Source of the DNA: Zymomonas mobilis subsp. pomaceae ATCC 29192
GTDB lineage: Bacteria > Pseudomonadota > Alphaproteobacteria > Sphingomonadales > Sphingomonadaceae
Length of the DNA: 64,000 bases
Assembly (NCBI RefSeq): GCF_000218875.1
Contig: NC_015709.1
Location: 1,302,001-1,366,000, forward strand
Direction: 5' to 3'
Under the pieces are notes generated by a model. It saw nothing but the letters and a program-made list of their open reading frames with translations, had not been told where the DNA came from and did not search any database. A program made the position numbers and the translations under genes. Of this stretch, positions 49,911 through 64,000 are shown piece by piece (the stretch's first letter is position 1; every line of letters begins with the position of its first letter).

Positions 49911-50504
49911 TTAATTGGGTTCAACCCAACCGATCGTACCATCAGAACGACGATAGACCATATTATAAAGGCCTGTTTTACTGTTTAAAAACAATAAAGC
50001 TGTCGTATTACGAAGATCAAGCATCAATACCGCATCAGATACCGAGGTTTCTGGTATATCCACCTGCATTTCTGCAATAATAGGAGGATGTTCGCCGCTT
50101 TCAACGGCATCATCAACCTCGAAAACAGTATAATGCGCGTTATCCAGTATTTCTTCTTCAGGGGTAAGCGCAGCTGTTTTCAAAGCAGGCGCCGGTGTGC
50201 TTGACTGCATTTTACTTTGTAAACGACTACGATGGCGACGAAGCTGTTTTTCTATTTTACCTAAGGCCTGATCAAAGGCCAAATGGGCATCCTTACCAGT
50301 ACCAGAAGCTTTTAGAATGATACCGCGCATCACATGGACAATAATGTCGCAAGAAATAACCGCCTGTCTTCGGCTGCCAAATGTTACGGTTGAGCTTAGG
50401 CATTTAGGGAAATATTTACCAATAACATCTTCAAGATGATCGGTAGTATAACGCCTTAGAGCAGTACCAGTATCAATCTGATGGCCAGAAATACGAATAT
50501 CCAT
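49911..50504 (-). CDS. hpf: Ribosome hibernation promoting factor, long form
   Basis: 197 residues: an N-terminal ribosome-binding domain (MDIRISGHQIDTGTALRRYTTDHLEDVIGKYF ending with AFDQALGKIEKQLRRHRSRL, cited as separate blocks of the family) and a C-terminal dimerisation domain (SVSDAVLMLDLRNTTALLFLN, MVYRRSDGTIGWVEP). The long form pairs two 70S ribosomes into an inactive 100S particle in stationary phase. It sits before ptsN on the minus strand, a common proteobacterial pairing. Confidence 0.95.
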   Translation of the reverse strand: MDIRISGHQIDTGTALRRYTTDHLEDVIGKYFPKCLSSTVTFGSRRQAVISCDIIVHVMRGIILKASGTGKDAHLAFDQALGKIEKQLRRHRSRLQSKMQSSTPAPALKTAALTPEEEILDNAHYTVFEVDDAVESGEHPPIIAEMQVDIPETSVSDAVLMLDLRNTTALLFLNSKTGLYNMVYRRSDGTIGWVEPN

Positions 50505-50630
50505 CTTAGCCTTCCTCCATACGCTCCTAAATAAACCCTGCTTTATTTATAATCAAAAAAATTGCTAAATAACAGGATTTTATCCCGTAATATTCGATCA
50601 TTCTATTATTGCAATCTCGATCTCTCTATC

Positions 50631-51329
50631 CTAAGCTTGACGCCAAACGGGATCGGAAATTTTATCAATAAAAGCGCCATGACGCAGCAACTCTTGCGGG
50701 CTGGCCTGATGGGGGCGGGGATTCCGTCTTGGTTTCCGGTTTTTCGACTGAGAGGCTGTATTATAGCCGTCCTTACGTCCCCCCGAAGCAGAATCATCGC
50801 CCAAGGCCATACCAATCTGACGCCCCCCCGTCAGTTCAACATAAAGTTGGGCTAACAACTGAGCATCCAGCAAAGCGCCATGCTTGACGCGATGGCTACG
50901 ATCAATGCCATAGCGGGTGCAAAGCGCATCCAAAGTATGTTTGGCCCCCGGATGCTTACTACGGGCAATCGCCAAGGTATCCACCATTCGGGTCATACAG
51001 ATGGCTGAATAGCCACATCGGCCTAATTCATGATTCAAAAAACCAAAATCGAAAGCCGCGTTATGGGCAACCAACGGTGAAAAACCGATAAAATCCAAAA
51101 AGGATTTCGCCTTTTCTGCAAAAAGAGGTTTATCTGCTAAAAACTTATCCGACAGTCCATGAATGGATTCTGCGACCGCATTCATAGGACGTTCTGGATT
51201 AAAATAGCAATGGAAGCTACGGCCGGTTTCAACTTTATTGATCAGCTCGACGCAACCGATCTCGACCAGCCGATCGCCATCAATCGGACTAAGGCCAGTA
51301 GTTTCGGTATCAAATACAATTTCGCGCAT
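50631..51329 (-). CDS. dnaQ: DNA polymerase III, epsilon subunit (3'-5' proofreading exonuclease)
   Basis: 232 residues from ATG 51329, which follows coaE by 4 bases; the longer open frame would overlap coaE in another frame. The exonuclease motifs are FDTETTGL (Asp7 and Glu9), VAHNAAFDFGFLNHE and RHGALLDAQLLAQLY with the catalytic histidine and aspartate just before. A polar C-terminal segment rich in Arg, Lys and Gly would bind the alpha subunit. Its place beside coaE, aroE and maf near the origin is conserved in alphaproteobacteria. Confidence 0.94.
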   Translation of the reverse strand: MREIVFDTETTGLSPIDGDRLVEIGCVELINKVETGRSFHCYFNPERPMNAVAESIHGLSDKFLADKPLFAEKAKSFLDFIGFSPLVAHNAAFDFGFLNHELGRCGYSAICMTRMVDTLAIARSKHPGAKHTLDALCTRYGIDRSHRVKHGALLDAQLLAQLYVELTGGRQIGMALGDDSASGGRKDGYNTASQSKNRKPRRNPRPHQASPQELLRHGAFIDKISDPVWRQA

Positions 51330-51333
51330 AGCA

Positions 51334-51930
51334 TTAGTATCGGCTACCTTGCCCCACAAGGCAACCGGCGATCTTTCTCGTCTGAGCCGCTGTTTGGGCA
51401 ATATTGCCCCCATTCCTAATAATAAAATCGGCTAATTGTCTTTTTTTCCGATCTGGCCACTGTCGTGACAGCAAGCCGTAAAAACGTGATTCGGTCATAT
51501 TTGGCCTTTTCAAAGCGCGACGACGCTGGATCCAACTGGGTGCAGAAACAACGGCAATATAATCGGTCAGGCGATCAAATCCGGCTTCAAATAATAAGGG
51601 TATATCAATAATAACAAGCGGACGGCTACGATGCTGCCGCAAGAAATGCCTTAATTCCTGAACAACAGCCGGATGAATAATAGCCTCTAAACGCGAAAAA
51701 CCGGCTGGATTAGCAAGCAACATAGATCCCAATTTTTGCCGGTTAACGCCATTAGCATCAATAACACCCGGAAAGGCCTGACCAATCGCTGGTAACAATT
51801 TTCCTTGGGGGCCTTGTAGCTGATGAACGACCTTATCTGCATCGAAAACAGGTAATTTCATGGCCGAAAAAAGAGTAGCTACCGTCGATTTACCCATCGC
51901 AATAGAGCCGGTCAGGCCTAAAATAATCAT
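51334..51930 (-). CDS. coaE: Dephospho-CoA kinase
   Basis: Phosphorylates the 3'-hydroxyl of dephospho-CoA, the last step of coenzyme A synthesis. 198 residues. The P-loop is GLTGSIAMGKST (5-16), followed by FDADKVVHQLQG, the CoA-binding ANPAGFSRLEAIIHPAVV and VIDIPLLFEAGFD. The end, RKKRQLADFIIRNGG, is the family's usual C-terminal block. It lies between aroE and dnaQ with very short gaps, which suggests one transcript. Confidence 0.95.
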   Translation of the reverse strand: MIILGLTGSIAMGKSTVATLFSAMKLPVFDADKVVHQLQGPQGKLLPAIGQAFPGVIDANGVNRQKLGSMLLANPAGFSRLEAIIHPAVVQELRHFLRQHRSRPLVIIDIPLLFEAGFDRLTDYIAVVSAPSWIQRRRALKRPNMTESRFYGLLSRQWPDRKKRQLADFIIRNGGNIAQTAAQTRKIAGCLVGQGSRY

Positions 51931-51939
51931 AACTTTCGC

Positions 51940-52821
51940 CTATTTCCGAGAAGTCAATAAAGCCCTTAACGCCTGATCTTGATCCCTTGGGGGTTTACAG
52001 CCGTAAAAAATTTCAAAAGCAACAGCGCCCTGTCCGATCAACATCGACATCCCGTCAATTGTTTTAAGACCCCGTGCTTTAGCCGCTTTTAGCAAGGGTG
52101 TTTCCAAAGGTGCATACACCACATCATAAACAAGCGTGCGGGAATCTACTTTGGCAAGACTAATATCAAGCGGCGGCTGCCCCGTCATGCCCAAGGTCGT
52201 AGCATTAACGATCAACCCTAATTCACCATCTTGTAAAAGAAATTCCGGTTCACGATTATCTTCAAGACTATGAAAATCCAAATCTCCCCGCAACGCGCCA
52301 ATATCCCGCGCTAACGCGCGCGCTTTTTCAGGATTACGATTGACAATCTGGCACGTAAAACCTGCCGCTGTTAATCCCAGAGCCACAGCGCGGGCGGCAC
52401 CACCGGCACCAATAATAAAGGCCTTTCGTAAACCTTCCCCTTGGTGCTGCATCGGGGTTTGTAAGGCTTCCATAAAACCCGGAATATCGCTGTTATACCC
52501 TTTTAAATGCCCGTCTTCTTCAACGCTTACAATATTTACAGCACCGGCTTTTTCGGCCAAAGGATCAATGCTGTCTAAAAAAGGTATCACAGCTTGTTTA
52601 TGAGGAACGGTGACATTAACCCCTCTAAATCCCAAAGCGGGCAAAGCCTTAATACTCTGCTCCAGATGGGACGGATGAACCGGAAAACGGCTATAGTCAC
52701 CGTTAATTTGACAAGCCTCTAACCAAAAACGATGCAACATCGGGGACTGGCTGTGGGCGATAGGCCAACCGATAACCCCTGCAACGGCAGGGTTCGGGCG
52801 ATAAAGAGTATTCTGAGTCAT
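51940..52821 (-). CDS. aroE: Shikimate dehydrogenase
   Basis: NADPH-dependent enzyme reducing 3-dehydroshikimate to shikimate in aromatic amino acid synthesis. 293 residues. The substrate domain has [21 protein letters not shown] and [15 protein letters not shown] with the catalytic lysine, and the cofactor domain has [16 protein letters not shown] and [12 protein letters not shown], whose arginine suits NADP. The C-terminal [19 protein letters not shown] is typical. Its ATG overlaps the maf stop by 4 bases. Confidence 0.95.
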
Positions 52822-53414
52822 ATCTTTACTATTGAGCGTTTTCGCAAATAGGCAAGTAAAGCGAGCAGGGGCAGCCCCATAATGGTGAAATGATCCCCTT
52901 CAATCTTATCAAAAAGTTGAATACCCAGCCCTTCAAGACGGTACCCGCCGACACAATAGCTAATTTCTGGCCATTCCTGATCGAGATAACTTTCCAAAAA
53001 ATCTTCAGAAAAAAGGCGCATCGTTAACAGCGCTTGATCTTGATAATGAAAAACACAGCGCCCTTGCTCGATCACGGCAAAGGCACTGGTCAGGATGTGG
53101 GGTTTTCCGGCTAAACCCCGCAAATGCTGGGCAGCCTCATCACGGTCTTTCGGCTTGCTCAATAAATCCCCTTCGGTTGTAATAACCGTTGAATCGCAGC
53201 CCACGACTAAATCATCAGGGCAATATTCAGCGACGGCCAACGCTTTGGCTTCTGCCAAGGCAAGCGCCAAACGAGCATTATCTTTTTTATTGGCCTGCCA
53301 TTGATGCTTGAGAGCGGTTTCGTCCACTTCTGCGGTTTTAATAGAAAAAGATACACCTGCCGACCTTAAAAGTGTGGCTCTGATTTTAGAGGATGACGCA
53401 AGAACAAAGGCCAT
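52818..53414 (-). CDS. maf: Maf-like nucleotide pyrophosphatase
   Basis: 198 residues from ATG 53414. Motifs are [20 protein letters not shown] at the N-terminus, the DD-type [21 protein letters not shown] and a C-terminal [21 protein letters not shown], all typical of Maf/YceF/YhdE. These enzymes cleave non-canonical or canonical nucleoside triphosphates and affect septation. A TTG start 4 codons earlier lacks a better ribosome site. In alphaproteobacteria maf, aroE, coaE and dnaQ lie together beside the origin. A short part of this gene is copied at 56874-56905. Confidence 0.9.
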
Positions 53415-53675
53415 AAATTTTTCCAAAAAAATTTCTAATATAGAGAATAATAGCAGTAATTCCCAAAGATCCTGTCTTAATTTTTTACTGTCTTATCTGA
53501 TATTATTTTTAAACAAAATTATATATAACCGTTAAAACATCTCATTTTTTAAAATATGTTACTTATAGAAAATAATAAATAACATTTTTTATAAAAAAAT
53601 TATTTTCATTATTTTTGTTAAAAAATTTAATAACAAAACCGTCATAATAAACAATGTTTAATAAAGGGGAGGGTC

Positions 53676-54263
53676 ATGACAGCTATATCTACATCAACAT
53701 CCAGCACAGTTCGCTATTGGCAAGATCCTAATTCTGACGCCACTGATCCCTCATCTACCCATGAAGACACCCTATAGTTGTTACCGCAGCAAATACGAAC
53801 AGCAAATACGAATACGCCTACCTCTTGTAACGGCTCTAGCACCGTACAAATTTCTAATAATGATAATAACATTGACATAATAGGTAGTAGTGATGGGTCA
53901 AATACTCATTCTTTAATAGGAAATATTTGTTTTCCGCCAACAACACAAAATATTAATTTTAATGATAAAGATGAAAAATCAGAAAATGATTTCAAATCTC
54001 TCAATGATAATAAAAATCTTACATTTAATGTAATTAGCTTTACGCTTTACTCTTATTTTGGGGCAATAAAAATAGAAGTAGATAAACAGCTTTCTGTGAC
54101 CGATCAGCAAAAAGCAATCAACAGGGCTGTGGAAACGGTTAATCTTATCAATAGTAAAAAAGATGCCATAGAACAGCCTTGTTCACAATCAAATCGAGTT
54201 ATAGCAGCCTACTCTGCTGTAAAAAATACTTTTTACAAACTAAGCCCAAATATACTTCAGTAA
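53676..54263 (+). pseudogene. Amber-interrupted hypothetical gene, first of the Sel1 cluster
   Basis: A strong ribosome site (AAGGGGAGGG) precedes ATG 53676, and the frame runs 33 codons (MTAISTSTSSTVRYWQDPNS..) to TAG at 53775-53777. The same frame then stays open to 54263, so one in-frame stop divides a 195-codon gene. The product is rich in Ser, Asn, Thr and Asp in its first 90 residues, then has a helical part with FNVISFTLYSYFGAIKIEVDKQL and SVTDQQKAINRAVETV. No family or signal peptide was recognised. It may be a recent pseudogene, may be expressed from a later TTG at 53778, or may be read through at the amber codon; these cannot be told apart here. Confidence 0.6.
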
Positions 54264-54279
54264 TGATGATACATTTTTA

Positions 54280-54651
54280 ATGAAATCATCTGAATTATTA
54301 AACAATAATCAAAGTGATGCTATAGCTGTTTTCGCCGATCAAACAGCACATGATGGTTGGCACATGGTTCAATATAAAAATAACAGACAAAATTTTTCTG
54401 TCAGGAAAGAAAAAGAAGCCGGTGATGTTCAAATATCTCTCTGCGATATTTTGGGGATTAGTAAAAGTAGTAAGCAATATTTTGAATCATATTTCAGTAA
54501 TCCACTCGCTATTGCAGAAAGAATGTTAGCGGGAATAACGGATCCCGCTACCCGCAACGCTATCATGCAAGAAGCACAAAAGATGATTGAAGAAGAAAAT
54601 GAGCAAAAAAAAGAAAGCTCTTATAAATCTCAACATAAATCTAAAGATTAA
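54280..54651 (+). CDS. Hypothetical 123-residue protein of the Sel1 cluster
   Basis: Starts 16 bases after the amber-interrupted gene and is followed 51 bases later by the Sel1 gene. The N-terminal part (NNNQSDAIAVFADQTAHDGWHMV) is followed by a predicted helical region (ISLCDILGISKSSKQYFESYF, IAERMLAGITDPATRNAIM) and a charged, Glu/Lys-rich coiled-coil-like tail. No signal peptide, membrane segment or known family was seen. There is no convincing ribosome site before the ATG, so translation may be coupled. It is AT-rich compared with the housekeeping genes around it. Confidence 0.6.
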   Translation: MKSSELLNNNQSDAIAVFADQTAHDGWHMVQYKNNRQNFSVRKEKEAGDVQISLCDILGISKSSKQYFESYFSNPLAIAERMLAGITDPATRNAIMQEAQKMIEEENEQKKESSYKSQHKSKD

Positions 54652-54702
54652 GAACACAATTTATATTAAATTATTTTAATAAAATAATAAGGTGGGGGCA
54701 CT

Positions 54703-56538
54703 ATGAAAAATACATATAATTTTATGATAAAAACAACAACAATACTCACGTTAATTTTATGTCATGTTCCTCCTGTTTTAGCTAAAGAAGATCAAGAAAT
54801 CACATCGCCGACCCAAGCCGAAGATCAATTTCATCTAGCGATGCACTATAAAAAAAATGACGACAATAAACAGGATTTAGAGAAAGCTTTTCGTTGGATG
54901 GAAGAGGCTGCTGATCAAGGCCATGCCGAGGCCCAACATCAGTTAGGACTTATGTATGATCGTGGTAAAGGCGTTGCTAAAAATGAAAAGAAATCCTTCT
55001 ATTGGATGCAAAAGGCCGCTGATCAAGGCATCGCAGCCGCCCAATTTGATATGAGCCTCATATATCAAGAAGGCATAATTTTCCCCAAAAATCCTGAAAA
55101 GGCCTTCGAGTGGTGCCAAAAAGCAGCCGATCAAGGTTATCCAAATGCAGAAGCTGTTCTTGGAGATATGTATTATGATGGAGAAGGAACGCCCAAAAAT
55201 TCTGAAAAAGCCTTCTATTGGTATCAAAAGGCCGCCGATCAAGATTACCCAGATGCAAAAGTCTCTCTTGGCTATATGTATAATAAGGGAGAAGGAACGC
55301 CTAAAAATTCTGAAAAAGCCTTCTATTGGTATCAAAAGGCCGCTGATAAAGGCATTCCCGAGGCCCAGTCCAATCTGGGAAATATGTATTTTATAGGGGA
55401 AGGTACCCCTAAAAATCCTGAAAAAGCCCTCTATTGGCTTAAAAAAGCGGCTGACCAAGGGAATATTATAGCGACTTATCTTCTTGGAAAACAATACATG
55501 GCTATTTCAAATGAGAAGGAAGCGGTTCATTGGTATCAAAAAGCCGCTGATAAAGGCCTTGCGTCAGCGGCATTCTATCTCGCTTTGATGTATAATAATG
55601 GTAGAGGCGTCGCTCAAAATCCTGAAAAAGCATTTTATTGGTATCAGAAGGCGGCTGATCACAATATTCCTGAAGCAGAATTCAATTTGGGGTTGATGTA
55701 TAATTTGGGAAGGGCAGTTCCAAAAGACCTCAAAAAAGCTTATTTTTGGTACCAAAAGGCGGCAGAACATGGATATGTCTCAGCACAGGTCAATGTCGGG
55801 CTTCAATATCTTTTAGGAATAGAAACCAATCGAAATTTGGAAAAAGCCTTCTATTGGTATCAAAAGGCCGCTGATCAGGGCAACGAAGATGCCGAAACCC
55901 GATTCGGGTATATGTATCAACTGGGATATGGCACCCCCAAAGATTTGGAAAAAGCCAAATACTGGTATCAAAAAGCCGCCGATCAAGATTATGCCTCCGG
56001 CAAATATGCACTGGGACAGTTGATCTATGATACAGGAAAAACGAACCCGAAAAATTTGGCTGAAGCGATTAAATGGATAAAACAAGCCGCTTATCAAGGG
56101 AATGAAGCGGCTGAATGTTTCTTGGGCGCCTTATATGAAAGAGGCGAAGGCGTCCCCAAAAATTTAGAACAAGCGATTTATTGGCTTCAAAGATCAGCAC
56201 AACAAGGCAACGCTCTTGCAGCCTGTAATCTTGGGCTGATCTATTATCAAGGCGAAGGCGTCCCAAAAAATTTGGAGCAGGCAGCCTATTGGTTCAAAAA
56301 ATCAGCGGAACAAAATTTCGCTGGAGCGGATTTTTGTCTTGGAATGATGACAGCGCATGATGACATTCCCTCTTATCCCCATACCATGGATGAATCGCTT
56401 CGGTGGTATCAAAAAGCCCAACTTCATGTTCACATTTCCATGACGGAAGTCACGCCGCCTTCTCCCAGTATGATTCCCTTTCTTCAGGAAATTTATCAGA
56501 GTCTTGATGATTTGCCGCCGCTAAAATTCACAGAATAA
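54703..56538 (+). CDS. Secreted Sel1-like repeat protein
   Basis: 611 residues. A signal peptide (hydrophobic core about 9-25, cleavage after VLAKE) leads to about 15 Sel1/TPR-like repeats of some 36 residues, with the pattern AxxxLGxMYxxGxGxPKNxEKAxYWYQKAADQG. Such solenoids bind proteins. Known relatives include exopolysaccharide regulators (ExoR, PodJ), Helicobacter Hcp proteins and Legionella effectors. Repeats four and five are almost identical in DNA, which shows recent internal duplication. A GGTGGGGG ribosome site precedes the start. The gene lies in an accessory block beside the origin, and a damaged second copy follows downstream. Confidence 0.85.
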   Translation: MKNTYNFMIKTTTILTLILCHVPPVLAKEDQEITSPTQAEDQFHLAMHYKKNDDNKQDLEKAFRWMEEAADQGHAEAQHQLGLMYDRGKGVAKNEKKSFYWMQKAADQGIAAAQFDMSLIYQEGIIFPKNPEKAFEWCQKAADQGYPNAEAVLGDMYYDGEGTPKNSEKAFYWYQKAADQDYPDAKVSLGYMYNKGEGTPKNSEKAFYWYQKAADKGIPEAQSNLGNMYFIGEGTPKNPEKALYWLKKAADQGNIIATYLLGKQYMAISNEKEAVHWYQKAADKGLASAAFYLALMYNNGRGVAQNPEKAFYWYQKAADHNIPEAEFNLGLMYNLGRAVPKDLKKAYFWYQKAAEHGYVSAQVNVGLQYLLGIETNRNLEKAFYWYQKAADQGNEDAETRFGYMYQLGYGTPKDLEKAKYWYQKAADQDYASGKYALGQLIYDTGKTNPKNLAEAIKWIKQAAYQGNEAAECFLGALYERGEGVPKNLEQAIYWLQRSAQQGNALAACNLGLIYYQGEGVPKNLEQAAYWFKKSAEQNFAGADFCLGMMTAHDDIPSYPHTMDESLRWYQKAQLHVHISMTEVTPPSPSMIPFLQEIYQSLDDLPPLKFTE

Positions 56539-56873
56539 CATTTATTCATTCTGTAAAATTATTCTAAAATTAAATAAACGAAAAACACATACACAAACTC
56601 ATACCAAAACATATTTCATATAAAATTATAAAACTTCAGGGGATGAAATGTCTTAATACAAGGAAACGCGAGGAAGCCCTTCTTTTGCATTAGGAAAACC
56701 ACAGCTTTGGTCATCTTTCTAGAATATATCATGCCGCTCTAGGCATAAGGCGACGAAAGAAACATCCATCCAACCAATGCCGAAAATCAGTTTCTTTCAA
56801 ACATCACCTAAAATAGGATACAAAAAAGAACTTTTTATCGCCGGAAAAAGCGGTTGATCAATCAAGGCTATAC
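56539..56873. other. Intergenic DNA after the Sel1 gene
   Basis: No convincing gene, hairpin or repeat. Part of it may belong to the degraded duplicate that begins at 56874, but no clear match could be traced by eye. Confidence 0.3.
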
Positions 56874-57255
56874 CAAGGTAAGCGCCAAACGAGCATTATC
56901 TTTTTCACCGGCCAGTCGGATATTTTTATCAACCTGTCAGCGCCTCCCCATCTGGCTCTGATATGATCGTGGTAAAGGCGTTGCTAAAAATAAAAACTAA
57001 GTCTTCTATGAGTTTCAGAAAGCAGCCGATCAGATGGATACGGCAGCGGCTTATTCTCTCGGGAAGCAATACACAATAATCCCCAATAATGAGAATGAGA
57101 AAGCGACTTTTTGGTATCAAAAGGCCGCTTATAGTTATCTAAAATCGGCTAAAAAAGGCAGGGATCAGCGGCTTTCATGCTTACTTGGATGTATGAAGGG
57201 TATCAGGATATCGCTTAAAATACTAAAAAGCATTTTATTAGTATCAATAAGATGA
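56874..57255 (+). pseudogene. Remnant of a duplicated maf-Sel1 segment
   Basis: 56874-56905 matches 53256-53287 inside maf with one mismatch in 32 bases. 56962-56991 is identical over 30 bases to 54955-54984 in the second Sel1 repeat. Both pieces keep their order and orientation, but 88 bases apart and not 1.7 kb. After the second match the frame gives YDRGKGVAKNKN, a stop (TAA at 56998), then FQKAADQMDTAAAYSLGKQY and KATFWYQKAAYS, clear Sel1 repeats. This is a collapsed second copy of the maf-to-Sel1 region. Confidence 0.75.
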
Positions 57256-57654
57256 CTGATAATTTTTTATACAGAAAGCGCTTAGTACTAAAAAAAATTC
57301 GATGATGTATATTCTGACAAGTCGTCACTCAAAATTTAGCAAACGCCTTTTCTGGGTATAATAAGGGCGGTCATCCCCTTAAGAACCTGCCAAAACCAAA
57401 CTATCCTATTTGTAGGGAAAAGGGATAGACATTGCGACAGCCCAAAAACAAGCCGTCTATAAGTCATAGGAAAATCTTCGATAAAGATTTCGCCGTAATT
57501 AGCGACTATTTAGATAACTGTTTGACCATGCAAATAATGGCCATAGCATAAGCAAAAAAAGATACTTCGCCATCTATGACCCAGACGACTGCTCCTCGTC
57601 AGAAGCAAAAAGATACTGAAGAATTTAAAGTACCCCAACAAGTTTCATTTTTAG
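57256..57654. other. Degenerate DNA between the Sel1 remnant and oriC
   Basis: Around 57347-57395 the plus strand can be read as YNKGGHPLKNLP, a possible further Sel1 fragment. The rest has stops in every frame and no recognised feature. Confidence 0.3.
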
Positions 57655-57906
57655 GATAAGACACGCTTTAATATCCCCTCACTCGACCCTAACCAAGTTT
57701 CTATCCCCAAAGGCGTGATAATCCTACCTATCGGGCACGCTCTTTCAGATGTTGAAATTGGGGTTAGCCTAAAAAAATGGAAAAATTGGACAATACAACC
57801 CTTCCTTTGTGCACCGCTTTTCGTAGATGCCCCCATTGTTTTATCCGTCTATTTATCTGGCTTTACCTTGATCAAAAAAACTGTGGATAAGCCTGTGGAT
57901 AAGTAG
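57655..57906 (+). other. Short open frame beside oriC, possible gene remnant
   Basis: The plus strand is open for about 84 codons (including FNIPSLDPNQVSIPKG and VIILPIGHALSDVEIGV) and ends in the first DnaA boxes, which it would encode as TVDKPVDK. There is a GTG at 57715 but no clear ribosome site. The first part looks coding. It may be the end of a gene lost when the region was rearranged. Confidence 0.3.
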
Positions 57907-58124
57907 GGGATAAAATTGTGGATAACCCTTACATCCCTAGTTATCCACAGAGTTATCCCAACAATCCACAGAACATCCACAGAGTTATCCACAGGCTAAG
58001 CCGTTTTATTACAGGACAATAAAGAATGTGTATAACTCGAACGACTCCGTAAGAGTCAACGAGTCGTCTTGGAACAAACCTGTTGATAACTTGGTGGATA
58101 AAAAACTTATCCCCATTATCCACA
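57882..58124. other. oriC: Probable chromosomal origin of replication (oriC) with a DnaA-box cluster
   Basis: Six perfect DnaA boxes (TTATCCACA) lie within 243 bp: 57882, 57894 and 57917 on the minus strand, and 57941, 57985 and 58116 on the plus strand. Near matches occur at 57953, 58027, 58081, 58093 and 58107, among others. Three GANTC sites, the target of the alphaproteobacterial cell-cycle methylase CcrM, cluster at 58043-58065 inside an ACGACTC/GAGTCGT inverted repeat. The region lies just upstream of hemE, the place of the origin in Caulobacter and relatives. An AT-rich stretch at 58137-58168 could be the unwinding element. Confidence 0.85.
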
Positions 58125-58169
58125 GCCCCTACTACTTCAACAACATTTTATTAAATCTTAAGGATTGTT

Positions 58170-59207
58170 ATGGGTGAACCGCGAAAAAAACCGAACGCAC
58201 CGCTATTAAAGGTTCTCCATGGCCAAAAACAAACGAAGCCCCCGGTATGGTTAATGCGACAGGCAGGGCGCTATTTACCGGAGTACCGAGCCCTTCGCCA
58301 AAAGAAGGCAGGATTTCTTAATCTTGTTGAAGATTCCGAGGCAGCCGCCGAGGTAACTTTACAACCTGTCCGGCGTTTCGGTTTTGATGCAGCCATTCTC
58401 TTTTCAGATATTTTGGTTATTCCCTATGCGTTGGGTCAAAACTTAACTTTCGTCAAAGGAGAAGGACCAAAGCTTACCCCTCCCTTAGTGAATCATACGT
58501 TAAAGACCTTAGAAAGGGCCCCACAGCATCTAAAAGCTATTTATGCTACCGTGCGTCGGGTCGCTGACGTTTTGGCACCAGAAACCACCTTTTTAGGCTT
58601 TTGTGGTAGTCCATGGACAGTAGCTACCTACATGGTCGCAGGAGAAGGCAGTCGTGATCAGGCCGTGACCCGAGAAATGGCCTATCGTGATCCGCAAGCT
58701 TTTTCTGAAATTATTGATGCTATCATCGACAGCAGCGTCGATTATCTTAACGGTCAGATTGAAGCTGGCGTTGATGCAGTTCAACTTTTTGACAGTTGGG
58801 CAGGGCCTTTATCACCACAACAATTCGAACGTTGGGTCATTGCTCCTACCGCCAAACTCATCAGCCGATTACGAGAAAAACAGCCCCATATCCCGATTAT
58901 CGGCTTTCCAAAAGGCGCAGGTAGCCGGATAAAAGCCTATGTGTGCGATACACAGGTCAACGCCATTGGCTTGGATGAAACCGTTGATCCTTTATGGGCG
59001 CATCAATACCTACCTTCGGATTTGCCTATCCAAGGCAATCTCGACCCTCTAGCCTTATTGGTAGGTGGAGACGCCTTAGATCAGGCTATTAAAACCATTC
59101 TTGATGCTTTTTCAGAAAGGCCTCATATTTTTAATCTGGGACATGGTATTCTTCCCCAAACGCCGCTCAATCATGTTAGCCGCCTTTTAGAGATTCTTCG
59201 TGCTTAA
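58170..59207 (+). CDS. hemE: Uroporphyrinogen decarboxylase
   Basis: Removes four carboxyl groups from uroporphyrinogen III to give coproporphyrinogen III in heme synthesis. 345 residues. Signatures are PPVWLMRQAGRYLPEYR at 25-41, GFCGSPWTVATYMVAG, VQLFDSWAG and FNLGHGILPQTP. AAGGA precedes the ATG by 6 bases. The gene lies directly beside the DnaA-box cluster, the same link as in other alphaproteobacteria, and transcription starting in oriC is likely. Confidence 0.97.
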   Translation: MGEPRKKPNAPLLKVLHGQKQTKPPVWLMRQAGRYLPEYRALRQKKAGFLNLVEDSEAAAEVTLQPVRRFGFDAAILFSDILVIPYALGQNLTFVKGEGPKLTPPLVNHTLKTLERAPQHLKAIYATVRRVADVLAPETTFLGFCGSPWTVATYMVAGEGSRDQAVTREMAYRDPQAFSEIIDAIIDSSVDYLNGQIEAGVDAVQLFDSWAGPLSPQQFERWVIAPTAKLISRLREKQPHIPIIGFPKGAGSRIKAYVCDTQVNAIGLDETVDPLWAHQYLPSDLPIQGNLDPLALLVGGDALDQAIKTILDAFSERPHIFNLGHGILPQTPLNHVSRLLEILRA

Positions 59208-59313
59208 TTCTAAAATTGCGAACGAATATATTAATGAATATAGAAACTGTGAATGAAGGTCGCTACCACTTGAACAAAAATTACATAAATAACCACAATA
59301 GAAGGAATGCTCT

Positions 59314-59769
59314 GTGATCGAATGGATGGGTTTTCTCGGTAATCTCTACCCTTGGGTCAAATCAGCCCATATTATTTTTGTGATTTTCTGGATGGCTGGT
59401 CTTTTTACGCTACCGCGTTATTGCATTTATCACAGTCAAACCATACCCGGTTCAGTCGAGGATCTTAAATGGCAAAATCGTGAGACGCGATTGCGCCATA
59501 TCATCTTAACCCCTTCTATTATTTTGTCTTGGATATTCGGGGTTTTATTAGCTTTACATGTCGGCGCTTTGGTCGTCGGATATTGGTTTCATGTTAAGCT
59601 GACGGCCGTTATTCTTCTTTCTATTTATCACGGCTGGTCGGTCGCCTATGCTAAAAAATTAGGACGCGGCTTCCGACCGTCCAGCGAACGCGGCCTTCGC
59701 CTTATGAATGAAGTTCCGGGTATTATTGCAGCCATTGTCGTTATTTTAGTCATTGTTAAGCCTTTTTAA
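59314..59769 (+). CDS. hemJ: Protoporphyrinogen IX oxidase, HemJ type
   Basis: 151 residues with four membrane helices, the HemJ (former UPF0093) family, which oxidises protoporphyrinogen IX in many proteobacteria that lack HemG and HemY. Signatures are WVKSAHIIFVIFWMAGLF with a conserved histidine, LFTLPRYCIYH, HVKLTAVILLSIYHG and RLMNEVPGIIAAIVVILV. The start is GTG 59314, with GAAGGA about 8 bases before; no ATG in frame fits. It follows hemE and precedes rho, the usual alphaproteobacterial order. Confidence 0.92.
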   Translation: MIEWMGFLGNLYPWVKSAHIIFVIFWMAGLFTLPRYCIYHSQTIPGSVEDLKWQNRETRLRHIILTPSIILSWIFGVLLALHVGALVVGYWFHVKLTAVILLSIYHGWSVAYAKKLGRGFRPSSERGLRLMNEVPGIIAAIVVILVIVKPF

Positions 59770-59848
59770 GAGCGATTTTTACTGTTATAAGATTAGAAAT
59801 ACTCTAATCCCATTATTCTTTTTCTTGACTCTCCATTTCCAACAGTTT

Positions 59849-59880
59849 AAGCGGGTTCCCCTACGGTGCCCGCTTTTCTA
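59849..59880 (+). terminator. Probable terminator between hemJ and rho
   Basis: AAGCGGG and CCCGCTT pair around a 13-base loop, followed by TTCTATT. The T run is short, so efficiency is uncertain. Confidence 0.6.
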
Positions 59881-59969
59881 TTAAAGGGTAATCTTTCCTT
59901 TATCTTATCCTCACTCTCATTCATTTTTCAGGCAATAAAGCCTATCTTGCCCCTACGGGATTCCCCGAC

Positions 59970-61226
59970 ATGCATTTAAAAGATCTCAAACAAAAATCAC
60001 CTTCCGAACTCGTCAAAATGGCAGAAGAACTCGGTATCGAAGGCGCTTCCACCTTACGTAAGCAAGACCTTCTTTTTGCTATTCTTAAAGTCCAGGCCGA
60101 GATGGGTGACCAAATTATGGGGCTTGGAACGATCGAAGTCCTCCCTGATGGTTTTGGTTTCTTACGTAGCCCAGAAGCGAACTATCTGGCTGGTCCTGAT
60201 GACATCTATGTTTCTCCAAATCAGGTGCGTAAATTTGGTCTCAGAACCGGCGATACGGTAGAAGGTGAAATTCGGGGACCAAAAGACAGTGAACGTTATT
60301 TTGCGCTTACAAAGCTGATCTCCGTTAATTTTGATAATCCGGACAATGTCCGTCATCGTGTTAATTTCGACAATCTGACGCCGCTTTATCCTTCCGAAAG
60401 ATTAAATCTCGACACCAACGATCCAACGAACAAAGATAAATCCGCGCGGGTTATCGACATTGTCGCTCCGCAAGGTAAAGGTCAGCGTTCCTTGATTGTT
60501 GCGCCGCCTCGGGTGGGTAAAACGGTCTTGTTGCAAAATATCGCACGGGCTATTTCTGAAAATCATCCCGAAGTTTTCTTGATCGTACTTCTGATTGATG
60601 AACGACCGGAAGAAGTGACGGATATGCAGCGCTCCGTCAAAGGTGAGGTGATTTCTTCGACCTTCGATGAACCTGCACAGCGGCATGTTCAGGTCGCCGA
60701 AATGGTCATTGAGAAAGCCAAAAGACTGGTCGAACATAAAAAAGATGTGGTGATCCTATTGGATTCCGTCACGCGTCTTGGCCGTGCCTACAATACGGTT
60801 GTTCCCTCTTCGGGCAAGGTCTTAACCGGCGGTGTTGATGCTAACGCGTTACAACGTCCCAAACGCTTCTTTGGTGCGGCACGCAATATCGAAGAAGGGG
60901 GCTCTCTCTCTATTATCGCGACTGCCTTAATCGATACCGGTAGCCGTATGGATGAGGTGATCTTTGAAGAATTCAAAGGCACCGGCAACTCCGAAGTCGT
61001 GTTGGATCGCAAGGTCGCCGACAAGCGTATTTTCCCGGCTATGGATGTAGGTAAATCCGGCACCCGTAAAGAAGAATTATTGGTGGATAAAAGCACTCTC
61101 TCAAAAATGTGGGTATTGCGCCGTATTCTGATGCAGATGGGTACCGTCGATGCGATGGAATTCTTACTTGATAAGATGAAAGATTCAAAAACGAACGAAG
61201 ATTTCTTCGCTTCGATGAATCATTAA
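59970..61226 (+). CDS. rho: Transcription termination factor Rho
   Basis: Hexameric RNA-dependent ATPase that ends transcription. 418 residues. The N-terminal helical part is [21 protein letters not shown], the RNA-binding cold-shock-like domain has [21 protein letters not shown], and the motor domain has Walker [11 protein letters not shown], Walker [12 protein letters not shown] and the Q/R loops [23 protein letters not shown] (cited in part). All motifs are intact. Its place near hemE and the origin is conserved in alphaproteobacteria. Confidence 0.97.
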
Positions 61227-61291
61227 TATTAAGGGAATATGATTACTTTTTCATGACAAAAAAAGATAAGAGGCATGAAAAAGATTTATGG

Positions 61292-61325
61292 TTTCTTGAT
61301 AACACAAGAAAGCTTCTCTTTTTTT
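61292..61325 (+). terminator. Possible terminator of rho
   Basis: TTTCTTG and CAAGAAA form a perfect 7-bp stem with a 6-base loop, followed a few bases later by a long T-rich tract. The stem is AT-rich and modest. Confidence 0.45.
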
Positions 61326-61386
61326 CTTCTTTTCTAGTAAGAAAAATGATCAATTGGGGTAAGGATGACTTTTGGTATTTCATTTA

Positions 61387-61405
61387 ATCCACAAAGTTAT
61401 CCACA
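61387..61405 (+). repeat. DnaA-box pair, second copy of an oriC motif
   Basis: ATCCACAAAGTTATCCACA contains one perfect DnaA box (61397-61405) and one partial box, and differs by one base from the motif at 57975-57993 in oriC. It lies in the gap between rho and the quinone oxidoreductase gene. Confidence 0.75.
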
Positions 61406-61449
61406 GATATATCCCCATATTTTAGATGACCTTTTTGTCCTAAAAGAAA

Positions 61450-61480
61450 ACCGGCTGATTTTGATAAAAGATCAGCCGGT
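61450..61480 (-). terminator. Rho-independent terminator of the quinone oxidoreductase operon
   Basis: ACCGGCTGAT and ATCAGCCGGT form a perfect 10-bp stem with an 11-base loop, followed on the minus strand by TTTTCTTTT, 45 bases past the gene's stop. Confidence 0.8.
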
Positions 61481-61524
61481 ATCCTCTAATAAATAGCCTG
61501 TCAGGACTAGAAAAATCGGTCATA

Positions 61525-62523
61525 TCAGGGGATAAGTATCGTTGATCCCGTGGTTTTTCGGCTTTCTATCAAGGCATGGGCTTTTGCCGCCTCTGTCAGA
61601 GGAAAACGCTGATTTATTTCCGCTTTCAGGATATTTTTTCGTAATAAATAGAATAATTTTTGGCTCGCCGTCATTAAATCCACAGAGTTATCCACATAAT
61701 CTTTCAGACGGGGACGGCTCATATAAAGAGAACCTGCCGCCGCTAACGCCAAAGGCGATAAAGGCGGCACTGGCCCGCTGGCATTACCATAGCTGACCCA
61801 TAATCCTCGCTTGCCCAAGGAAGCGAGTGAACTTTTCCAACTGGCTGCACCAACACTATCCAGCACCGCATGGACAGCTTCCCCTTGATTTTGTTTTTTG
61901 ATCCAGTCAGGCAATTCTGAATAGGGTAGGGTGGTAATATAGTCTGCGCCGTTTGCCTTTACTTTTTCGGCTTTTTCTGCGGTGCTGGTATGGGCAAAAA
62001 CGGTAACTCCTAAATGTTTCAACCAAGGCACTAACAGACTACCAACCCCCCCAGCAGCGGCTAAGACTAACACACGGGGCGCTTCTCCCTGTATCAGCGC
62101 ATGGGCTAAGCATTTTTCAGCCAGCATCCAACTAGTCATGCCTTTTAATAAAACAGCCGCTGCCGTTTCCGCACTTATATCATCCGGTAAAGCGACTAAT
62201 CCATGGGCATCGACAATCCGATGGGTTGCATAGGCGCCAGATTTTGACGTAAAAATGGCGACACGATCCCCCACTTTAAAGCCTTTGACATCGGGGCCTG
62301 TCGCTTCAATAACGCCCGCAGCTTCACATCCCAAAGGCGAAGGAAAATGCTGTCCATACAAGCCGGAACGATGATAAATATCAATAAAATTGACACCTAT
62401 TGCCTGATGTCGCAACAAAACTTGGCCAGCCTGCGGCTTCAAGCTGGTAAGATCGAGCGGCTTTTTTACTAATACTTCTGGGCCACCGGCCTTTTCTGCA
62501 AGGATAGAATAGGCTTCACTCAT
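61525..62523 (-). CDS. NADPH:quinone oxidoreductase, zinc-free MDR family
   Basis: 332 residues, resembling QorA and zeta-crystallin. The catalytic domain has HQAIGVNFIDIYHRSGLY and LGCEAAGVIEATG; no zinc-binding cysteines are present. The cofactor domain has VLVLAAAGGVGSLLVPWL (an AAAGGVG version of the dinucleotide loop). Expected to reduce quinones by one electron or act on related alkenals with NADPH. The stop of the upstream hydrolase overlaps its start by 4 bases. A DnaA-box motif lies inside its coding sequence at 61678-61696. Confidence 0.9.
   Translation of the reverse strand: MSEAYSILAEKAGGPEVLVKKPLDLTSLKPQAGQVLLRHQAIGVNFIDIYHRSGLYGQHFPSPLGCEAAGVIEATGPDVKGFKVGDRVAIFTSKSGAYATHRIVDAHGLVALPDDISAETAAAVLLKGMTSWMLAEKCLAHALIQGEAPRVLVLAAAGGVGSLLVPWLKHLGVTVFAHTSTAEKAEKVKANGADYITTLPYSELPDWIKKQNQGEAVHAVLDSVGAASWKSSLASLGKRGLWVSYGNASGPVPPLSPLALAAAGSLYMSRPRLKDYVDNSVDLMTASQKLFYLLRKNILKAEINQRFPLTEAAKAHALIESRKTTGSTILIP
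61678..61696 (+). repeat. DnaA-box pair inside the quinone oxidoreductase gene
   Basis: ATCCACAGAGTTATCCACA is identical to the 19-base motif at 57975-57993 in oriC, and here it encodes VDNSVD in the opposite strand's gene. It includes one perfect DnaA box (61688-61696). Confidence 0.8.
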
Positions 62524-63218
62524 GACAATGCCTTTTCAATAAAGTTAAAACTACGCTTATCGGCCAATTCTGCGGCTAATTCGGCTCTTCGTTTTCCTTT
62601 TTCAGTCGCAAAACCGTGACCAGCTTCTGGATAAACATAAACGAGGCTATTTTGTTGGTCAGCAAAGGCCTTCTCTATTTTTTCAATGGCCTGTTTTGAG
62701 ATGAAAGGATCGCTACCCCCAAAATGCAGCATTAAAGCTGCCTTTATCGAAGGCAGTTTATCAAGATGCTGATCAATCGAAACGCCATAATAACCGATAG
62801 CGGCCTCTACTTTATTTTCACTGGCCATTAAAAAAGATAAAAAACCACCCAGACAATAGCCAACAGTCGCCACTTTAAGCGTCGGAGCTAAATGCTTCGC
62901 CTCGATAAGCGCGGCTTCAACGGTTTCCAGGCCTTCTTTTAAGGTCAATTGATTATAATAGGCCATTGCTTGTTGCATTTCTTCGGGAATATCAGGGTCC
63001 AGCTCTACATTCGGCGCGATATTCCAGAATAAATCAGGGGCAAGCGCGACATATCCCGCCTTGGCCCAACGATCGACCCTGATACGGATGCCTTCATTTA
63101 TCCCGAAAATTTCAGGAATAATAAGGATAACACCCTTTGCTTTACCCACAGGACGCGCATAATAAGCTGATATTTCATGGCTTTTATCAATGGTCTTAAA
63201 GGTAATTTTTTCGCCCAT
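62520..63218 (-). CDS. Dienelactone hydrolase family protein
   Basis: 232 residues, an alpha/beta-hydrolase with a cysteine nucleophile in place of serine: Cys122 in VGYCLGG. The acid is in GGSDPFIS and the histidine in EAGHGFA, completing the Cys-Asp-His triad of the family. KGVILIIPEIFGINEGIR is the usual N-terminal block. True dienelactone hydrolase acts in chlorocatechol breakdown, but many family members have other esterase roles, and no aromatic pathway genes are nearby. It forms an operon with the quinone oxidoreductase. Confidence 0.9.
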   Translation of the reverse strand: MGEKITFKTIDKSHEISAYYARPVGKAKGVILIIPEIFGINEGIRIRVDRWAKAGYVALAPDLFWNIAPNVELDPDIPEEMQQAMAYYNQLTLKEGLETVEAALIEAKHLAPTLKVATVGYCLGGFLSFLMASENKVEAAIGYYGVSIDQHLDKLPSIKAALMLHFGGSDPFISKQAIEKIEKAFADQQNSLVYVYPEAGHGFATEKGKRRAELAAELADKRSFNFIEKALS

Positions 63219-63327
63219 AGCTAATCCTTGAAAGCCTTTTATCTTTCAGAAGATAAGCGTTTAGCGCTCAATGATAAGGTATTATCCGCGTTTATTCTGT
63301 ATTACCTATTTTCTTTCAGCCTAAAAA

Positions 63328-63822
63328 TTATGCGGGCCGATAACGCTTTTCATGATCCAGAAGCCAGCATTTTGTTGAAACGCCATTGCCGCTCGAATAT
63401 TGCCCTAAAGAGCCATCCGCCTTCACTACGCGATGACAGGGCACAATTAAAGTAAAGGGATTGCGGGCACAGCTTTGGCCTATCGCCCTTGCCCCTGAAT
63501 CTATCCCCATCGCCACTTGCCGATAACTAGCCGTTGAACCATAGGCTATGTTCATAATAGCCTGACGCATAGCTTCCCCTTTCGGAGTAGACGCAGGCTT
63601 CAAGGGAAGATCAAAATGATATAATTTTCCTTGAAAATAAGCGTCCAGTTGCTGCGTCGTTTCTTTTAAAATAGCTGATTGGCCCAATATTTCTTGTAAA
63701 TCAGCTTTTTCTGTCACGCTTTGGCGGGTTTCTTGGGGCTCAATCGAAAGCCTTTCAAGATAATGGTCAGCGGCTTCCAGAAAAAACAGACCAATGGGGC
63801 TCGGATAATATAGTCGCTGCAT
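63328..63822 (-). CDS. ogt: Methylated-DNA-protein-cysteine methyltransferase
   Basis: Suicide DNA-repair enzyme that takes the methyl group from O6-methylguanine. 164 residues. The acceptor Cys129 lies in IVPCHRVVKADGSLGQYS, followed by GVSTKCWLLDHE. The helix-turn-helix with its arginine finger is in SYRQVAMGIDSGARAIGQSCARNP. The short N-terminal domain and absence of an AraC-like part make it Ogt-like and not Ada. The gene is alone on the minus strand. Confidence 0.92.
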   Translation of the reverse strand: MQRLYYPSPIGLFFLEAADHYLERLSIEPQETRQSVTEKADLQEILGQSAILKETTQQLDAYFQGKLYHFDLPLKPASTPKGEAMRQAIMNIAYGSTASYRQVAMGIDSGARAIGQSCARNPFTLIVPCHRVVKADGSLGQYSSGNGVSTKCWLLDHEKRYRPA

Positions 63823-64000
63823 AAATGCACCTTTACTTAAACGACATTGTAACCACTAAAAACAGCTTTGCGCGCTGCCTTAAATTACGACGATACATTT
63901 ATTTCTGTGGATATTCTGAAAGGCTGTTGAAAGCCTAAAGAGAGGATATTCAAAAAATACCCCCGATATAATTCTTTAATTTATAGAAAGTGCTTTTCAA

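Follow-up and report, generated by a model that had tools for sequence, protein, structure and literature searches.

The chromosomal origin of Caulobacter crescentus, Cori, is linked with hemE. An origin beside hemE has been predicted for most Sphingomonadaceae with Ori-Finder and DoriC, as stated in passages of a study of Sphingopyxis granuli TFA (PMC4741004; this and the other published sources are drawn on in excerpts). For Zymomonas mobilis, DoriC places the origin at 1,353,901-1,354,938 in Zm6 and at 2,055,615-146 in Zm4, and a cluster of boxes together with skews is cited as the grounds (PMC8365228). These origins were used for qPCR, which gave origin/terminus ratios of 1.1-2.3, and the authors state that the site is without experimental proof; Zymomonas is also reported there to be polyploid (PMC8365228). 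In Sphingomonadales, dnaA is not kept near the origin (PMC8116508). Among the matches listed from the literature on the Zymomonas origin or DnaA, the titles and abstracts contain no treatment of oriC fine structure or of satellite boxes.

We analysed a window of 64,000 nucleotides (contig C1, 1,302,001-1,366,000) from the genome of Zymomonas mobilis subsp. pomaceae ATCC 29192, labelled G000 where it is set beside three other Zymomonas genomes (G001, G002 and G003). Positions below are those of the window unless C1, Mb or a genome label is given. We computed the DnaA boxes and their conservation, the skew, the dif-like and parS-like sites, and the genes with GcrA and CcrM-type RAMA domains. The main chromosome of this genome almost certainly has its DnaA-dependent origin (oriC) at 57882-58169. 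An earlier note had called the region a probable chromosomal origin, a proposal now supported by the skew, the absence of a rival box cluster, the conserved layout, and the nearby parA/parB-like ORFs and parS-like site. The features are as follows.

50631-51413, dnaQ-type exonuclease gene (Pfam)
51334-51930, coaE (Pfam)
51940-52821, aroE (Pfam)
52818-53426, minus strand, maf (Pfam)
57882-58169, predicted oriC: box core 57882-58124 plus a putative unwinding edge that reaches the hemE start
57882-57993, left DnaA-box array: exact boxes at 57882(-), 57894(-), 57917(-), 57941(+) and 57985(+)
58027-58035, minus strand, TTATACACA box with one mismatch, invariant in 4/4 Zymomonas genomes
58043-58065, GANTC (CcrM) triple between the arrays, with sites at 58043, 58053 and 58061
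58081-58124, right DnaA-box array: 58081(-), 58093(-), 58107(+) and 58116(+), rare in relatives
58116-58137, plus strand, box followed by GCCC and three DnaA-trio-like triplets (CTACTACTT)
58142-58171, candidate duplex unwinding element; no other 30-mer in the origin region is less stable, and it is in the top 2% of the window for instability
58170-59207, plus strand, hemE (uroporphyrinogen decarboxylase, PF01208)
59314-59769, plus strand, UPF0093 family gene (Pfam), which we take to be of the hemJ type
59970-61226, plus strand, rho (Pfam)
61385-61405, plus strand, satellite 1, TAATCCACA-AAG-TTATCCACA, in the convergent rho/qor gap
61525-62523, minus strand, zinc-binding dehydrogenase family gene (Pfam), presumably qor-like
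61676-61696, plus strand, satellite 2, AAATCCACA-GAG-TTATCCACA, within the qor-like zinc-type dehydrogenase gene

The cluster had been described in the earlier note as six perfect boxes with near matches, on both strands within about 240 bp and adjoining hemE, and our scan agrees with this description. Specifically, there are six exact TTATCCACA boxes, namely those of the left array and 58116(+), and four boxes with one mismatch, at 58027(-), 58081(-), 58093(-) and 58107(+), with hemE starting at 58170. The left array holds two perfect double boxes with a 3-bp spacing, at 57882-57900 and 57975-57993. Clustering of DnaA boxes beyond chance, a trait of hemE-linked alphaproteobacterial origins, is found at 57882-58124, where 10 boxes with at most one mismatch fall within 243 bp, compared with a maximum of 4 in any 243 bp across 200 dinucleotide shuffles of the window. 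The genome as a whole (2,061,413 bases in 3 contigs) carries 22 exact boxes, 6 of them in this interval, and the genome-wide scan found elsewhere never more than two exact boxes per 500 bases. Two exact boxes on opposite strands, 80 bp apart, are present at C1:1422266-1422354, 62 kb from oriC. A motif scan of 57701-58300 found neither an IHF consensus nor a full CtrA site (TTAA-N7-TTAA, spacings of 6-8 included), and Rfam returned no match at gathering thresholds in 50000-64000.

Both hemE and the box cluster are common to all four Zymomonas genomes (G000-G003). The boxes with at most one mismatch lie at -288, -276, -253, -229, -185, -143, -89, -77, -63 and -54 relative to the hemE start, positions that agree within one base across these genomes; the G003 contig begins at -255. 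Exact boxes upstream of hemE number 6, 6 and 7 in the three genomes where the region is complete, and the hemE protein of the present genome shares 81% identity with its counterparts in G001-G003. For a wider comparison we used 79 of 80 further hemE loci, nearly all Sphingomonadales by record title. The counts leave out L062, whose contig starts 139 bases upstream of hemE, and include L116 (Rhodoplanes, outside the order), L077 (Microvirga) and L101 (Bacillus). L101 (Bacillus sp. 2B10) and L077 (Microvirga sp. SRT01) carry boxes upstream of hemE, and their record titles look wrong. Across the 79 relatives, the density of boxes with at most one mismatch is 3.20/kb over the 700 bp preceding hemE and 0.10/kb in the rest of the locus, an enrichment of about 30-fold. 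At least one such box lies in the left-array stretch in 69/79 relatives and in the right-array stretch in 17/79, and 5/79 have none in the 450 bp upstream of hemE. Exact boxes are few: 43 relatives have none, 22 have one, 12 have two, one has three and one has four.

The right array ends beside the putative unwinding edge. Unwinding modules have been described as a box, a GC-rich element and a DnaA-trio in this order (PMC8235120), which is the source of our motif definition. The box-GCCC-trio string at 58116-58137 is unique within the window, and it was found upstream of hemE in 0/79 relatives and in 0/1867 random windows taken from them. The strict form of the trio is not retained in G001-G003, and the support that it lends is therefore weak.

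Between the two arrays, the GANTC triple spans 23 bp, and the distances of its sites from hemE agree to within one base across 4/4 Zymomonas genomes. GANTC is scarce in this genome, with 692 sites in 400 kb of sampled sequence, or 1.73/kb against the 3.79/kb expected from base composition, and no three GANTC starting within 18 bases were found in the same 400 kb. Two GANTC within 25 bases are present upstream of hemE in 53/79 relatives compared with 4/79 in the hemE body, and in 2.2% of 2695 random windows. Domain searches of this genome detected GcrA as well as a RAMA domain of the CcrM type, the CcrM-type call resting on the RAMA domain; in control searches of 14 genomes, RAMA was found in Caulobacter only, and GcrA in Caulobacter and, oddly, in Sulfolobus. 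The Caulobacter origin contains GANTC sites (PMC3973325). A GANTC cluster upstream of hemE in Sphingomonadales is not described in the titles, abstracts and passages among the matches listed, which is no proof of absence.

The origin core might be the left array alone, with the GANTC triple and the right array serving mainly as a GcrA/CcrM-controlled hemE promoter and taking no part in melting. This is a real possibility, although we place it on the unlikely side. The right array is matched in far fewer relatives than the left (17/79 versus 69/79), the genome has genes with GcrA and CcrM-type RAMA domains, and GcrA works at promoters with methylated GANTC (PMC8116508), all of which would suit a promoter. 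However, the right array terminates in box-GCCC-CTACTACTT beside the least stable stretch, which is the order of the unwinding modules, and its box positions are common to 4/4 Zymomonas genomes.

We prefer the reading in which the whole of 57882-58169 acts as oriC, and we infer DnaA binding, melting, bidirectional initiation and a role for methylation there as follows. DnaA would bind the strong boxes of the left array, including the two 3-bp-spaced double boxes, plus the right-hand boxes. A DnaA filament may then extend from the last box (58116-58124) across GCCC and the triplet repeats as far as 58142-58171, an unstable stretch that would melt, followed by helicase loading. Forks would depart both ways, travel 858 and 1132 kb, and meet close to dif (C1:228424). 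Their passage would leave the three GANTC sites between the arrays hemimethylated, and this state could link the origin, or hemE transcription, to CcrM and GcrA.

Strand composition was followed at several scales. In the contiguous stretch C1:1,302,001-1,520,000, the cumulative GC skew has its minimum at 1,366,000, about 6 kb from the boxes, and the cumulative TA skew at 1,391,000. A two-arm fit of GC and TA skew to 361 blocks, about 722 kb of C1, puts the best origin at 1.38-1.39 Mb, that is, 20-30 kb from the boxes, with 1.36 Mb being 2.3 and 1.35 Mb 10.9 log-likelihood units worse. Composition thus locates the origin within 6-30 kb and not exactly at the boxes. The skew minimum had been named beforehand as a check on the origin; over the part of the chromosome covered, the GC minimum came close to the boxes while the optimum of the fit did not coincide with them. 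At the regional scale, twenty 20-kb samples, one per 100 kb, show negative GC skew in 11/11 samples from 0.3 to 1.3 Mb and positive skew at 1.4, 1.5, 1.6, 1.9 and 0.0 Mb, with slightly negative values at 1.7, 1.8 and 0.1 Mb, where positive ones were expected, and zero at 0.2 Mb. Within the window, the skew keeps its sign across the boxes. A switch of strand composition at the origin is seen in the sampled DNA to about 30 kb only. For arms running from 1.360 Mb to dif, the sampled GGGNAGGG motifs fit in 40/44 reverse and 24/36 forward cases, leaving 12/36 forward motifs on the wrong arm; taken alone, these motifs place the best origin at 1.22-1.26 Mb (69/80 agree) versus 64/80 for 1.36 Mb.

The displacement of the skew raises the question of a start elsewhere, for example at about 1.38-1.40 Mb or at dnaA, with the cluster being a DnaA-regulated or DnaA-titrating region before hemE. 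The fit optimum at 1.38-1.39 Mb, the almost flat cumulative GC skew across about 1.36-1.39 Mb and the lack of a sign change at the boxes inside the window point that way. The 632 kb that separate dnaA (C1:1,659) from the boxes on a circular C1 also speak against the hemE-side reading. Yet the stretch 1.366-1.42 Mb has a single exact box, at 1,376,764, and not one exact box lies on C1 within 260 kb downstream of dnaA. In addition, boxes are enriched upstream of hemE across the 79 relatives, published predictions, as far as the excerpts go, put the origin by hemE in this group, and gene-strand effects could account for a displacement of 20-30 kb. We consider a start elsewhere very improbable and take hemE-side oriC as the origin in what follows.

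The genes around the cluster are arranged as in hemE-linked origins, with hemE directly downstream, rho and parAB-like ORFs on that side, and maf-aroE-coaE-dnaQ opposite. A row of mnmE-mnmG-rsmG-parA-parB-like ORFs, as read by eye, begins 6 kb from the boxes, and the parA- and parB-like ORFs, also read by eye, lie about 12-14 kb away. Between the mnmE- and mnmG-like ORFs of this otherwise conserved origin-side row sits a 469-aa ORF (C1:1367648-1369057) that looks levansucrase/invertase-like by eye. Scoring a 14-mer with at most one mismatch as parS-like, we found a site at 1,371,220 in G000, 11 kb from the boxes, two in G001 (1,393,543 and 1,395,577) and two in G002 (108,948 and 110,982), each within 15 kb of the boxes. 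Both G000 and G002 have more parS-like sites at distances of about 100-120 kb; in G000 there is a perfect parS core at C1:1243617-1243630, 116 kb from oriC. Further sites of G001 lie at 833-835 kb, beyond its inversion (see below), and those of G003 are on contigs other than the one with its boxes. On the terminus side, a dif-like 22-mer at C1:228424-228445 has three mismatches to the dif consensus; it is identical in the 3/3 Zymomonas genomes tested (G000, G001 and G002), with diverged flanks. The two arms from the boxes to this site are unequal, 858 versus 1132 kb.

The other genomes add to the picture. In G002, whose boxes are at 120 kb, the GGGNAGGG strand switches from the 105-125 kb sample to the 200-220 kb one, and the skew of the left arm is mixed. 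In G001, both the GC skew and the GGGNAGGG strand flip between the 0.9- and 1.0-Mb samples, with the hemE boxes at 1.381 Mb, and the 1.4-Mb sample has negative skew. A comparison of stretches showed that 0.70-1.11 Mb of G000 is inverted in G001, at 0.91-1.32 Mb, a one-arm inversion. The flip is thus best read as an inversion edge, and we set it aside as evidence against a hemE origin.

The left side of oriC is variable. Closeness to maf-aroE-coaE-dnaQ, another feature put forward in the earlier note, stands as far as the identity of these genes goes, all of them Pfam-confirmed, but maf is not adjacent: it is set apart from hemE by a Sel1-repeat gene of 611 aa, a pair of small ORFs and apparent Sel1 debris. 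This block occupies 53778-57250, the seemingly decayed Sel1 gene covering about 57001-57250. From the maf start to the hemE start the distance is 4.7 kb here versus 829 bp in G002, in which Sel1 genes beside oriC are absent. The left neighbour of oriC is therefore Sel1 genes in G000, maf in G002 and other genes in G001, and so the left edge of oriC seems, from these genomes, to be a site of rearrangement. In G001, the ORFs to the left of oriC look by eye like sulfate-assimilation genes, and we assume that ZM4 numbering begins at such genes. We considered, and dropped, a conflict between the ZM4 DoriC site (2,055,615-146) and a hemE origin near 120 kb, for which the clue had been a Sel1 gene at 122 kb that carries the label hemE (PMC5930841) together with hemE at 118.8 kb in G002. 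Since G002 has no Sel1 genes by oriC, it provides no bridge to the ZM4 strain, and with the sulfate-assimilation-like ORFs of G001 in the same place, no such conflict is claimed.

Downstream of hemE, the two satellite double boxes lie at +3.2 and +3.5 kb from its start, about 291 bp apart, and both are invariant in 4/4 Zymomonas genomes. Perfect copies of ATCCACA-N3-TTATCCACA number 4, 3, 3 and 2 in G000, G001, G002 and G003, respectively; 8 of these 12 are satellites and 4 belong to oriC. When two mismatches are allowed, G000 yields 11 matches versus 3 for the reversed control pattern, and 3 of the 11 fall outside oriC and the satellites. Satellite 2 covers nine consecutive codons that are identical in 4/4 genomes, where the next longest run is three, and an invariant run of nine was reached in 43/20000 shuffles; G001 and G003 are closely related (89% in the qor-like gene), so the four genomes are not fully independent. 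Among the 79 relatives, whose loci extend to +6 kb in 67 cases, a single weak match (3 mismatches) was found at +2 to +6 kb, and double-box matches with at most 3 mismatches occur upstream of hemE in 29/79. E. coli DnaA prefers boxes spaced 2 or 3 bp in vivo (PMC11317965).

Judged by their placing, a promoter role of the satellites is unlikely, and they may have a part in DnaA control or in a split origin. A second DnaA-dependent start site on the chromosome, at the double boxes of 61385-61696, is very improbable. Two perfect double boxes and a very unstable 30-mer at 61632-61661 (top 0.83% of the window) might suggest it, but there are just two double boxes, without a box-trio string, the unstable stretch is conserved only in part, and 3.4 kb is probably too near for two independent origins to matter. 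We tentatively propose, as an idea more apt to fail than to stand, that the Zymomonas origin acts with a dedicated satellite, one double box of which is kept in a coding gene by selection at the DNA level. The satellite could be the outlying half of a split origin, or else a site that stores or recharges DnaA. If so, the satellite and the many consensus boxes of oriC could set a high origin copy number in polyploid cells.

With a hemE-side origin already predicted in Sphingomonadaceae, and DoriC sites in Z. mobilis, this origin is ordinary in kind and is what a specialist would expect. What is new here is the GANTC triple, the two satellite double boxes with their conservation in Zymomonas, and a right array seldom matched in relatives. 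The origin, the dif-like site and the unequal arms fix the replication map of this genome, which belongs to a genus used for ethanol production, and the satellites, the GANTC triple and the right array offer testable handles on the control of initiation in a polyploid alphaproteobacterium.

Compared with known systems, the locus resembles the hemE-linked oriC of Sphingomonadaceae, in which a box cluster and an unwinding element, here a candidate one, lie in an intergenic region near hemE with conserved neighbours (PMC4741004). It differs from those of the relatives, which have 0-4 exact boxes (n=79), in that the Zymomonas genomes have 6, 6 and 7 and an additional right-hand array. The DoriC predictions (PMC8365228) concern Zymomonas strains other than the present one; the Zm6 position resembles that of oriC here and the genomes are similar in size, although these are raw coordinates whose numbering starts may differ. 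As in C. crescentus Cori, DnaA boxes and GANTC sites occur together in the origin (PMC4468827, PMC3973325). The DnaA sites of Cori are weak G- and W-boxes, and five CtrA sites accompany them (PMC4468827), whereas here six exact consensus boxes and no TTAA-N7-TTAA were found; neither full CtrA sites nor a reliance on weak DnaA sites, the marks of the Cori type, is seen in this origin. The double boxes with a 3-bp spacing, in oriC and in the satellites, recall those of E. coli, including DARS2 (PMC11317965); the satellites, which are putative DnaA sites, differ in their setting, one being between convergent genes and the other within a gene, at +3.2 and +3.5 kb from hemE. Finally, in Bacillus subtilis and Helicobacter pylori the origin is bipartite (PMC4285127, PMC8235120), and the present locus likewise has two separated box groups and, at the putative melting side, the order of box, GC, trio-like and AT stretch, whereas the spacer here is not dnaA but hemE-UPF0093-rho, of about 3.2 kb, and the second group consists of two double boxes.
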